A stretch of DNA of 64,000 nt from Prorocentrum cordatum (lineage: Eukaryota; Sar; Dinophyceae; Prorocentrales; Prorocentraceae). Position numbers and translations under genes: made by a program. Under the pieces are notes generated by a model. That model did no database searches. It was not told the origin of the DNA and saw only the letters and a program-made list of their open reading frames with translations. Of this stretch, positions 40,172-64,000 are shown piece by piece (position 1 is the stretch's first letter; each line of letters begins with the position of its first letter). Location: assembly GCA_963575745.1 (NCBI GenBank), contig CAUYUJ010003425.1, forward strand, positions 522,097-586,096. The letters run 5' to 3'.

Positions 40172-43060
40172 GTGGGCCACCGCGTTATCGACCCTGCGGT
40201 TGCGGGTCGCGACGGCTGGGTCATCCTCCACCACGACCATGGCGATACCACTACCAGGCTCTGGGCACCGACCCAAGTCCACGTCAAGGCGGACGACACT
40301 TGGCGCACGGTCATGATCCCAGCGGACCTGGGGCCCCAGTGGATCGAGCGCCATGCAGACGACGCTCGCCTCCCCGCTGAGGTGGTCCGCACTACAGGCC
40401 AGTCCTGGTTCGCCGACGTCTGGCCCTTGTGGGATCGACCCCGACCCCACCCAGACGACGCAGTCACCGACGAGCAAGCGCTCCCGCCCCTACCAGGACG
40501 CTGGACTTGCCTACAGTGCCGATTCCAATGCTGTCAGTATTGTGCTGCCCGCCGCAACACGCCGCTCGGCACCTCGGGCCAACCAACGTGCCCAGACTGC
40601 TCCCTCAGCGGACTACGTGCACTTATGGACTGGTCCACGGACTACTCTTGCAACAGCTGGACGTGTGCGTACAGCACCGACAACAGGGACTCCGACACAT
40701 GCTGCCTCTCCAGCAGGTGCCCCCATCCGCCTCGTCCGCACAGCCTGTTCGACGTCCGTGCCACAGGGATGCCTCCGCACATCCTCGCCCGCCAATACGG
40801 CAACGCGCCAGCCCAGCACGACCTCAAGGAACCCCCCCGAGCGCCTTCAGGCCCCGGGGGGGAGCCTCCACAACCAGGCCAAGCAGGTTACCAGGGTCAA
40901 AGGTATCTACCACCGAGGCCGCGTCGCGTCCTCAAGCAGGGATTGCCCGACGGCACGAGGCGGCCACCTGGGTTCACAGGAACGGGGATGCCTGAAGACC
41001 CGTCTCCCGACCAACCGCTGTGGAGGGAAGGCTACGTGCTCTTCGGCCCCCACCAGGCCCTCAAGGAGGACTTCATCTTCAACAAAACGGTCCGCCGACC
41101 TTACTCCCTAGCCATCACCAACATGCACAGGGATCGTGTCACAGTCAGGACCGTCTGCGAGGCTATCGCCGAGCGCATCCACACTACCCGCACGCGCTGG
41201 CGGGATGTGGTACTGTACTGGGATGCCGAGGGCGGCCCTGGGCCTCAAGCTCTCGACTACGACATGCGACTCTGTGACGCCATGGTGAGTCGTGCCACGA
41301 CCGAAGCCGAGTTGAACCACGACCGCAGCAACCGTGGTAGCTTCTGTCTCTATGGACCAGCGCACCAGCGAGCTGTGAACATCACGGTGCTCCCCGAGCC
41401 GCAGAACATTGACTACGTGGAGCATGTGCGGCGCTACTCACCCGTCGGGGAGACCTACCCAGACCATGCCTTCGAGCACGTCTATCAGGGCTGGCGGCGG
41501 CCCGACGTGCCCACCCTCCTCCCCGACACCCGCCCGCTCTCGAGAGCCGACCAGCAGCGCTACCAACAGCACCAGCAGCGCACCCAGCAGCGCGACCAAC
41601 GCGACGCAGGTCAGCCGAGCACGCCACGCAACCGCTCCCCCGCGCGCGTCCCGACAGGCGACAGCGCGGTGTACGGCGGGGGAGCCGCCCATCACCGTGG
41701 CCCCATTGGCGCCAGGCCCGCGGCGGCAGGAGCAGCCGCCTCCAGCTATGGCCACGCCCCCCACGTCAGGGTGCACCCAGCGGTCTTCGGCTACCCGCGT
41801 GCACGCGTGCAGGCTCCCCCACGGGCCACCTCGCCCGTGCCAGGGTCCACGCGTGCCTGGGGCAATTACCCAGGCCGCCATGACAGCACCGCCAGCTACC
41901 AGCCCGCAGTGGTAACCCCTGCGGCTTCAGCCCAGGGGGCTGCACCAAGCCGAGGCAGGACAGGGCGCCCTGAAGGATGGCGCGAGGCGAACGTGCGTGC
42001 CCGGCAACCGCGCCAACACACGCCCCCGCCAAACGTGGCCGCAGCGCTGCGCCCTACCCAGGCAAAACCTGGCCCCCCTGAGCGCGAGCGGCAGCCGCTC
42101 GTCCCGCTCGTCCTCACGTACACCCAGGCGCACCACAGCGCCTCCCCGCGGCACAGCGAGGGTAGTGCCCACCACGTCAGCCCCCGGCCTGACGCCGTCG
42201 ACCCTGACCAGGCTGCAGCCTCGGCGGCGGGCGGCACAGGCGGCTCCCGCCAGCCCAGCCCAACACCCTGCGCAGCGCCGATCCGCTCCCCGAGCAGGGC
42301 GGACTCTGCGCGCGCTAACGCCCAGGCGACCTCGCCACGTGACCGCCACACGGGCGGGCGCGTCCCGCGCAGCCGGTCCTGCAGCCGCCACAGCTCGCGC
42401 AAGGCCCCTGGGAGCTCCACGTGCTCGCCGCCCCGCGAGACTCAGGCTGATGGCCAAGCCCCCGAGGTGGTGCCACGTTTCGGTGCCAGCGCCATCGAAC
42501 CTGGCCAGGTCGACCTCGAGCCGACGCCGTCCACGGACCTGGAGTTGCCACCGCCCACCCGCGTTGTCGCCCCCATCGACGAGGCGCCGACCTTCGACCC
42601 CTTCAAGAACAAGTACCGCGTCAAGGACCTCGCGGCGGGCTTCGGCGGCGGCTCACCGCTCTCTCCTCAGAGCCACGGCGGCGCCCCCGCCACCTCAGCC
42701 GCTGCCGCGGCAGCGGCGGCCCCGCGTGGAGCCAGCCCTGTCCGCAACGCGTGCCTCACGGCAGCGGGCATGGATGAGGCTCAGCGCCAGGCCGCCGACC
42801 GCGCCGCTCGAGCTGTTCCACCCGACGCTGCTCATCGCGGTACTGACGGGGCGGGCGCGCCGCCGCAGGACGGACCAGCGGTGTCGCGCGCGCAGTATAT
42901 GCGCGCGCGTTGCGCCGCTGCCGCGCCGAGCCGCCGCCGCTGGTTTGCTTTTGTTCTTGTTTTCGGCAGGACGGATCGAGGAGTCGCCTCCCTCTCCCTC
43001 TGCTGCCGTCTCACCTCTCCTCCCCCCGTCCCCCACGGCACAGGAGTGAGGAGGATTTTT
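40172..43060 (+). CDS. Retroelement ORF1, Cys-rich and Pro-rich (copy 1)
   Basis: This is the first part of a frame open to 44158. About 110 residues in comes a cysteine cluster (WTCLQCRFQCCQYCAARR, then C-P-D-C, C-N-S-W-T-C and T-C-C-L-S-S-R-C), likely zinc-binding and RNA- or DNA-contacting, at 40507-40735. Next is a conserved segment containing WREGYVLFGPHQALKEDF and RWRDVVLYWDAEGGPGPQ, followed by a Pro/Ala/Arg-rich linker of ~450 residues and FDPFKNKYRVKDL. The role, as in other non-LTR ORF1 proteins, is presumably binding of element RNA. The first ATG lies in the CT repeat, so translation from it is doubtful. In copy 2 the equivalent ORF1 ends in an overlap with ORF2; here a longer C-run at about 43087 fuses the frames. 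Confidence 0.65.
40832..40862 (+). repeat. Bulged hairpin H1 (GCC/GGC form)
   Basis: Arms CCCCCCCGAG/CCCGGGGGGG (one A.C mismatch), bulged C 40842, GCC 40843-40845, loop TTCA, GGC. Read as APSGPG. The copy 2 counterpart is 57452-57482. Confidence 0.65.
41926..41948 (+). repeat. Bulged hairpin H2
   Basis: Arms CCCCTG/CAGGGG, bulged C 41932, GGC, loop TTCA, GCC. Read as AASAQ. Confidence 0.85.
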
Positions 43061-44158
43061 CGAGGCAGTTTTGCCGATGTTTATGACCCCCCCCCGGCGC
43101 AGTGTCGACCATGCCTTGCCTATACTTCTGGCCTGACGGCGGCTTCAGCCCCGTCCAAGCCAATCTGCCGCGACGCCTTGAGCTCCTACTGTGGCCAAGC
43201 CTTCTACCTGGGTGAGGGCCAGGCTGCCCTCCACCGTGCGGGGCGTGCTAACCCCAGCTCCACCGACGGAGACGGGCCAGGTCGCTCCATCCACCTCGTC
43301 AGCCTCAACATCACGAGTCTCCCAGCGAACTGGCCAACCATCACCGCTCTTGGTGTCGACCACAACGCCGCAGTCATAGCACTGCAGGAGACCCGACATG
43401 CCAAGCCTACCAGGCAAGCCATCGCTACCAACGCCGCCAATCCACACCACGGAGGAAATCAGGCCAGTCTGGGACCTGACCTGGATCTGGCGCGAGCCCA
43501 GCGCAAAGCTGCTCACGGTGGCACGGACCACACGGTCGAGGGCAACACTGGCGCCTCGGGAGGGGTCGCCATCCTCTCTAAGGACGCCATCGTCGACTCC
43601 ACCGTCGACGACACAGCGTCCTGTATCGCCACCCTCAAGGCCAAGAAAAGATGGCACGAGGCCTTCCTCCCGCTCTGCACCCAGCACCGCAGCAGGCGGC
43701 GACGAAACAACCACGGGCCCGCTGGGATCTACATTGCGAGCCTCTACGGGGTCGCTGGAGGAGACAGCACCGATTTGTTTCGGCTTGCTGACTGCGCCGC
43801 CGCGAGGGTCGGCTCAGCCCCGTATTTCATTTGCATGGACGCCAACACGAACATCGACGACAATCCACATCTGCTGCACATGATGCAGCACGGATGTTTA
43901 ACGTCGCTGAAGGCACACCAGACCACACCATGCACACATATGGCAATATCCCTGACTGGGACCGCGTCACCAAGTGCCCCTGCACTTCGCGCATCGATTA
44001 TATCATCGCCAACCAAGCTGCGCGATCCCTTGTCACCGACTTCTGCTATCTGCGTGACTTGCCAGCGAAGTCCCATGTTGGCCTGCAGGTCACACTCGAC
44101 CTTAGCCGCCTTGACCATACGGCCCACGCCTTCTGGCCCCCACGCCTTACCCTCCTAA
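43061..44158 (+). pseudogene. APE-type endonuclease domain, copy 1 (frameshifted)
   Basis: An exonuclease-endonuclease-phosphatase fold that nicks target DNA for target-primed reverse transcription. Visible motifs: LVSLNITSL (Asn, ~43300), ALQETRH (catalytic Glu, ~43380), GGVAIL, GIYIASLYG, and ICMDANTN (Asp-x-Asn, ~43830). The frame then shifts by a 1-bp loss near 43893, so SRIDYIIAN (~43987) and AKSHVGLQV (catalytic His, ~44066) are in another frame. In copy 2 (59698 on) all these motifs are in one frame. A second 1-bp loss near 44124 shifts it again. Confidence 0.8.
43135..43155 (+). repeat. Bulged hairpin H3
   Basis: Arms GACGG/CCGTC, bulged C 43140, GGC, loop TTCA, GCC. Read as AASAPS. 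It lies just upstream of the endonuclease domain. Confidence 0.85.
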
Positions 44159-63695: not shown

Positions 63696-64000
63696 GGCTC
63701 TTCGATGAAGACCCAGCCCTCCTCGACCTGCAGGCCGACCTCGCGAAGGACCCGCTACCTCAGCCCATGCCGCGGCCCCCACCTGAGGGAGACCCTGCGG
63801 CTTCAGCCCAGGACTCCTACACCACCTACCTTGACCACGACACTGGTTGGACATGGGTCTACGCTGCCACGGACGGTGCATGCACCAACCAAGCCATCCC
63901 AGTGCTTGCACGAGCGGGCTACGGCGTCTACTACGGCATCGACCACCGCATGAACTACAGTGCACGCGTTCACGGCATTACGCAGAACGCACAGCTTGCG
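63696..64000 (+). pseudogene. RNase H domain start, copy 2 (cut by window end)
   Basis: Frame with DPALLDLQADLAKDPLPQ, hairpin H5', YTTYLDHDTGWTWVYAATDG (first catalytic Asp), AGYGVYYGIDHRMNYSARVH. The window ends before the Glu motif. Confidence 0.8.
63794..63812 (+). repeat. Bulged hairpin H5' (counterpart of H5)
   Basis: Arms CCTG/CAGG (the outermost T-A pair of H5 is lost), bulged C 63798, GGC, TTCA, GCC. Confidence 0.75.

Follow-up and report, generated by a model that had tools for sequence, protein, structure and literature searches.

The 64,000-nucleotide stretch of Prorocentrum cordatum DNA analysed here (contig CAUYUJ010003425.1, positions 522,097 to 586,096 of the forward strand; hereafter the window) contains, from 40,170 onward, two head-to-tail copies of an element best described as a long interspersed nuclear element (LINE) residing in (TC)n tracts, and a bulged hairpin is repeated along its sense strand at 14 sites, in 20 instances. 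We propose, with a probability of about 0.55, that these dispersed RNA hairpins are protein-binding signals for ribonucleoprotein (RNP) assembly or packaging of the LINE RNA. A protein-binding RNA signal read in trans is suggested because the bulge and loop are near-fixed and the arms free, the hairpins are confined to the sense strand, they vary little among copies, and they are shared with an otherwise unrelated element.

A bulged hairpin recurs along a LINE-type element

Each hairpin obeys one rule: an unpaired C or A, GNC, a UYCA loop and GN'C, enclosed by arms that are free in their letters but paired. The core CGGCTYCAGCC was found 15 times in the window, always on the + strand, compared to ~0.2 expected; CGGCTTCAGCC occurs 11 times and CGGCTCCAGCC 4 times, all on the + strand and all within 41.9-63.8 kb, where shuffles expect 0.08 and 0.10. 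When the GCC/GGC inner stem is included, 18 instances fall in the interval covered by a first-pass annotation of this DNA, and in 12 of the 18 the arms run unbroken for 5 bp or more. That annotation described the motif at 12 sites in 17 instances. The motif itself was confirmed, as were the arm counts and inner stems given for those 12 sites (ten GGC, two GCC), but the total is 14 sites and 20 instances, since 50374 and 46423/62770 had been missed. Its statement that outer arms differ completely between sites is true for most sites and fails for 53095/54060 and 56319/48689; because these two pairs share arm sequence, not all 14 sites arose independently. The instances are likewise not independent because two tandem copies of one element supply them.

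Hairpins in the window:
Site 1, 50367..50391, + strand: C bulge, GUC/GGC inner stem (includes a U.G pair), UUCA loop, 7-bp arm; absent from the earlier annotation
Site 2, 51707..51739, + strand: 11-bp arm
Site 3, 53088..53112, + strand: 7-bp arm
Site 4, 54051..54079, + strand: 9-bp arm
Site 5, 55200..55220, + strand: GCC/GGC inner stem, 5-bp arm
Site 6, 56312..56336, + strand: UCCA loop, 7-bp arm
Site 7 copy 1, 40832..40862, + strand: GCC/GGC; one A.C mismatch in the arm
Site 7 copy 2, 57452..57482, + strand
Site 8 copy 1, 41916..41938, + strand: 6-bp arm; other fold preferred by RNAfold
Site 8 copy 2, 58533..58555, + strand
Site 9 copy 1, 43135..43155, + strand: 5-bp arm
Site 9 copy 2 (instance 59753), 59747..59770, + strand: 3-bp arm, then an extra G
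Site 10 copy 1, 45195..45215, + strand: one arm mismatch
Site 10 copy 2, 61543..61563, + strand: one arm mismatch
Site 11 copy 1, 46418..46438, + strand: variant loop TGCA; absent from the earlier annotation
Site 11 copy 2, 62765..62785, + strand: loop UCCA
Site 12 copy 1, 47447..47467, + strand: 5-bp arm
Site 12 copy 2 (instance 63798), 63794..63812, + strand: 4-bp arm
Site 13, 48562..48586, + strand: 7-bp arm
Site 14, 48677..48711, + strand: 12-bp arm; 120 bases past site 13

We compiled 21 representative sites from the LINE and a partner element described below, omitting near-duplicates and, at sites 10 and 11, replacing the window's copies by ones from contig C21. The bulge was C in 18 and A in 3, the loop TTCA in 16 and TCCA in 5, and the inner stem GGC/GCC in 13, GCC/GGC in 4 and GTC/GGC in 4; 15 G.U pairs were present among 205 pairs. 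RNAfold placed the hairpin within the minimum-energy fold at 13 of the 14 window sites. The A.C mismatch of instances 40842 and 57462 lies one pair from the bulge and is followed by a long C/G stem (by RNAfold for 40842), and where instances 45200 and 61548 carry their arm mismatch all five sister copies pair 5 bp.

At sites 43140, 46423, 54060 and 55205 the stem resumes past a small asymmetric internal loop as a second outer stem of 4-5 bp. Close hairpin pairs, 114-129 bases apart, were seen in both the LINE and the partner (48569/48689 in the window; L016 and the L015 partner sites; L069). An Rfam scan of 39800-64000 gave no match at or above any family's threshold, and one sub-threshold match touches a hairpin (mir-598, on the opposite strand, at 54060).

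Hairpins are enriched on the sense strand of the element

A generic scan of 39.8-64 kb for any bulge base, a 3-bp stem, a 4-base loop and arms of at least 5 bp returned 14 sense matches, 13 of which were the motif (12 with TTCA/TCCA, one with TGCA), whereas none of the 8 antisense matches was. When the 23.8-kb stretch of element was simulated 100 times with a first-order Markov model, 0 hairpins appeared, compared to 13 observed. Across 116,202 bases of element DNA the sense strand held 95 cores; the arms reach 4 bp or more in 83 of them and 5 bp or more in 77. The antisense strand held no core. In 80,688 bases of other DNA, a set that includes eight loci picked for holding a core, there were 10 cores, none with a 4-bp arm. 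Thirty isolated 11-base cores from 28 loci, a small sample taken from the first contigs in the genome-wide core listing, had no arm pair in 23 cases and a longest arm of 3 bp. Genome-wide (4.128-Gb assembly, 21,875 contigs), the core occurs 26,011 times and the reversed pattern 16,129 times, in counts that ignore arms and do not split the excess by locus. A chance origin was rejected on the shuffles, the generic scan, the armless isolated cores and the Markov simulations.

A covariance model was constructed from 15 distinct sites and run over 164 kb of window and array DNA. Its 77 matches at E <=0.01 are all sense to the element; many of them are sequences that went into the model, or their sister copies. 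Outside the element the strongest match had E 0.08 and lay at 38,495 on the minus strand, and a match at 50,366 (E 0.14) revealed the additional site 1. That the hairpin always lies on the sense strand, as first claimed, agrees with the count in element DNA of hairpins whose arms reach 5 bp or more, 77 sense and 0 antisense; equal strand frequency, which had been named as incompatible with the claim, was not seen, and the sampled isolated 11-mers were without arms. A bulged hairpin of another kind (T bulge, GCU/UCUA/AGC) is present twice at locus L009, outside the element (L009:5906 and L009:6149).

Hairpin sequences vary less than their flanks

Among aligned copies, 17 of 368 hairpin columns were variable compared to 825 of 6,786 flank columns (p=1.8e-6), and a second alignment gave 18 of 368 compared to 575 of 4,826 (p=1.2e-5). 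At the nine sites with a clear reading frame, third codon positions varied at 5 of 75 hairpin and 220 of 1,040 flank positions (p=0.0015). Hairpin variation is about one-third of flank variation, third codon positions included, in counts for which arm lengths were set by hand, site 45200 had one aligned row (and so adds no variable column) and site 53095 had three. The unpaired base is the second base of its codon at six of these nine sites, the third at two and the first at one. Because all three codon phases are used, the hairpin is not a peptide motif, and a peptide origin was rejected on these phases and the low third-position variation. The original preference for a conserved nucleic-acid structure over a peptide is upheld by both observations together with arm complementarity, the sense-only distribution and the G.U pairs.

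Arm complementarity over 15 sites gave a covariation score of 0.603, compared to 0.142 when shuffled (0 of 500 shuffles reached the observed value) and 0.06-0.18 with partners slid; the score compares different sites, some chosen for pairing, and measures recurrent self-complementarity, not homologous covariation. At site 14 all 12 arm pairs were kept in six copies despite three variable columns. The UUCA or UCCA loop was kept in 76 of 81 site-copies covering the 14 LINE sites, one further row having been left out as belonging to another site.

These data bear on two other explanations. A signal acting in DNA (cruciform, recombination or integration site), or a by-product of GC-rich composition or of a repeated peptide, would draw on the high GC content and on GGFSP-like peptides that recur in one frame, but the Markov simulations yielded no match and the codon phases and third positions speak against a peptide. 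An RNA rather than a DNA signal is indicated because the G.U pairs would be mismatches in DNA and only the sense strand is used, and we regard this explanation as barely credible. A translational device, in which interdomain hairpins pause or redirect ribosomes in giant open reading frames (ORFs), would fit hairpins that lie in linkers (as judged by eye) at intervals of about 400 codons in long open frames. It is highly improbable given the use of all three codon phases, the presence of hairpins in a partner with low-complexity frames and the pairs 114-129 bases apart.

Hairpins are evenly spaced along the LINE

Along one unit, 13 positions (sites 13 and 14 merged) are separated by gaps of 965-1,795 bases, with a mean of 1,212 and a coefficient of variation of 0.173, and 0 of 200,000 random placements were as even. 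The merging was chosen after seeing these two sites; with both retained, 9 of 200,000 placements were as even. The window unit is a composite in which sites 13 and 14 come from copy 1, shifted by the period. For three other units on contigs C21 and C37, 0, 0 and 2 of 200,000 placements were as even, in units that on C21 include a few places with a mutated or partly deleted hairpin; being related copies, these are no independent evidence of spacing. Partner element spacing was not significant (17,532 of 200,000).

Even repetition over the full length of the RNA suits a role in coating, condensing or packaging it. The hairpins may instead bind a host or element protein for nuclear export, for shielding a very long transcript from premature termination, decay or silencing, or for translational control of ORF1/ORF2, with even spacing reflecting a need for coverage. 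The data that support RNP assembly apply equally here, and transcript-wide even spacing fits coverage as well as it fits packaging. However, the 30 isolated cores, a small sample, gave no sign that the host uses the hairpin, as none had a 4-bp arm; we consider this explanation rather unlikely.

A partner element carries the same hairpins

An element of ~7 kb on contig C2 has the same 5' terminus as the LINE and a 3' region matching it at 77% over 570 bases. Its interior showed no protein similarity to the window when sense-strand frames of at least 80 codons were compared, and its large frames are low-complexity with no significant Pfam family, and the element is apparently non-autonomous. It carries six hairpins, two with a bulged A. 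A copy on C7669 has counterparts of all six plus two more, the last of the six having an arm mismatch and a UUCA loop where C2 has UCCA, and the fetched part of a copy on C20042 has two hairpins. No antisense hairpin with a 3-bp arm was seen in these three copies. Locus L041 is a chimera with a LINE-like 5' end followed by partner-element sequence, which suggests exchange between the two elements.

Within the partner, hairpins have multiplied as a segment of ~81 bases or more was duplicated. Together with the two site pairs that share arm sequence and the location of sites in low-complexity linkers (by eye), this would fit mobile hairpins, small palindromic units that insert into linkers, for which Rickettsia palindromic elements and mitochondrial double-hairpin elements are precedents. 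The first-pass annotation had offered such a unit as an alternative. It found no support in the copies: no precise empty site was present among the 81 LINE site-copies, where the sole loss was a 16-base deletion through a hairpin, or at the six partner sites in the second copy, although copies were identified by alignments spanning the site, so that an empty copy aligning in two pieces could be dropped. A fixed inserting unit is also unsupported because arms differ completely between most sites, and neither strand bias nor even spacing would be expected of it. We consider mobile hairpins very unlikely.

Peptides encoded across the hairpins are kept in some protein relatives

ORF1 protein relatives at 85, 71 and 57% identity keep both core-coded peptides of ORF1, as GGFSP or GGSSP and as ARLQA, ARLQT or ARLQP, which are the changes expected from loop and inner-stem variants. 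The alignment omits P0012, a partial sequence 99% identical to ORF1. P0012 is filed under a Myxococcales metagenome-assembled genome, very probably through misbinning of a dinoflagellate contig. Two relatives, 82% and 42-49% identical over the aligned piece, were found for the first ORF2 hairpin, and both have GGFSP there. Judging by these peptides, the hairpins themselves are probably present in the genes of the relatives that keep them. Scans of viral contigs and of genome contigs found no relatives, and a search with the endonuclease/reverse transcriptase (EN/RT) protein gave no match.

Structure of the host element

The two LINE copies are 88-91% identical and repeat with a period of 16.35-16.62 kb:
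40170..49465, + strand: LINE copy 1, truncated at its 5' end, where it adjoins a (TC)n tract; carries candidate EN and RT regions, an RNase H region and the 3' untranslated region (49095-49465)
49480..49878, + strand: (TC)n tail or target tract between copies 1 and 2
49879..64000, + strand: LINE copy 2, which starts at its own 5' terminus and extends past the window end

An RNase H domain, a feature of some LINE clades, was detected (PF00075, E 6.2e-7, 30.1 bits, cut-off 25.8); the APE-type endonuclease (PF03372, 21.8 bits, cut-off 24.5) and reverse transcriptase (PF00078, 14.5 bits, cut-off 29.6) both scored below Pfam cut-offs. Copy 1 shows the 5' truncation typical of LINEs, beginning mid-element at 40170 after (TC)n. 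In sister copies ORF1 has 868-870 codons and is followed by a giant ORF2, which in one C21 unit runs without a stop for 3,470 codons in a single frame (L010:4050 to L011:4459), very large for a LINE. The reading frames of the window's copies are broken into several pieces and were left unmended.

By eye, many element copies end in or start after (TC)n tracts, some with other copies directly downstream (window 49480-49878, L039-L068). This suggests that (TC)n microsatellites are the insertion target, which would explain the head-to-tail clusters. Tandem arrays of ~66-73-base and 32-base units lie just upstream of LINE copy 1, at 38236-39816.

A model for the hairpin array

We hypothesize that the sense RNA of this giant LINE-type retrotransposon carries a cis-acting hairpin at intervals of about 1.2 kb, each a site for an RNA-binding protein. 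This protein, which most likely comes from the element itself (ORF1, ~870 aa, being the obvious candidate), would read the near-fixed bulge and loop, and of the arm would need only that it be double-stranded. Many bound copies would coat, condense or package the ~16-kb RNA into a retrotransposition RNP, and the bound hairpins would mark the RNA as the element's own. The partner, retaining the hairpins and both LINE ends, could then be carried by the same machinery. We infer from sequence that the RNA is made and so folded in the cell, that a protein binds it, which protein this is, that RNPs are assembled and that the partner is non-autonomous. A packaging or binding signal, already suggested in the first-pass annotation, is the best available reading and is strengthened by the even spacing and by the second element, with binding itself presumed. 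A more specific version, in which the evenly spaced, virus-like array serves as a packaging ruler for the ~16-kb RNA and its code was taken over by a parasitic element for packaging in trans, is possible, with the odds tilted slightly against it.

Several observations weigh against the proposal that the hairpins are protein-binding signals for RNP assembly. ORF1 relatives at 40-50% identity (P0014-P0016) are without either core-coded peptide, and the peptide of the second ORF2 site is kept in the closer relative only, P0018 being without it, near its end. Searches of Pfam, PHROG and PDB returned no significant match for ORF1, the candidate binding protein: with its profile the sole PDB match up to E 1 was at 0.79 and the sole PHROG match up to E 0.1 was at 0.063 and of unknown function, and no coat-protein homologue was found in these PDB and PHROG searches. 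Site 41922 prefers another fold in RNAfold, some sites are duplicates of each other, and 5 of the 81 site-copies have another loop (TTCC, TTCG, GTCA and TGCA, once each) or are partly deleted (one). Homologous covariation in five partner hairpins was not above shuffling (222 of 500 shuffles reached the observed value); both bases had changed in one pair (G-C to A-U), and in three pairs just one base had. Measured on homologous copies, the covariation named at the outset as a check is thus thin.

Comparison with known systems

We found no earlier description of such a hairpin array in the titles and abstract openings of the open-licence papers that searches on this point returned. One known system to compare is the iron-responsive element, treated in PMC8466369. 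Iron-responsive elements have a 5-bp upper stem and a CAGUGN loop. The hairpins described here differ in their 3-bp stem and UUCA/UCCA tetraloop, in lying within coding sequence and in being many per RNA; an unpaired C on the 5' side of a stem is common to both.

The partner element resembles short interspersed nuclear elements (SINEs) that share a LINE 3' tail recognised by the LINE protein (see PMC4176376 and PMC5135761) in having the LINE's 3' end. Unlike tail-sharing SINEs, it also has the LINE 5' terminus and an internal hairpin set. To our knowledge no such repeated hairpins occur in L1. The position of ORF1 upstream of the EN/RT ORF and its C-terminal stretch, which by eye resembles a coiled coil, recall the assembly of L1 RNPs by ORF1p (see PMC9410894 and PMC10202459). 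How a LINE protein chooses its own RNA (cis preference) and how a long RNA is organised in an RNP are open questions, and if our proposal is true, these countable, evenly spaced and partner-shared candidate sites would make both directly testable.

Phage MS2 is the type case of dispersed packaging signals in ssRNA viruses. In MS2 packaging signals the inner stem is 2 bp and the outer stem variable. Many such hairpins are distributed over one RNA, with an xxYA loop and a 5' bulged A, according to PMC6281560. The LINE array is similar in its many hairpins on one RNA, 5' unpaired base, short inner stem and variable outer stem, and all 21 representative loops (TTCA in 16, TCCA in 5) conform to xxYA. 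It differs in that the bulge is C at 18 of 21 sites and A at 3, so that the unpaired A of MS2 is not the rule, and in its 3-bp inner stem, near-invariant loop, even spacing and location in a eukaryotic retrotransposon. The resemblance would thus be one of working principle, with no homology found; if true, it would extend the idea of dispersed packaging signals from RNA viruses to retrotransposons.

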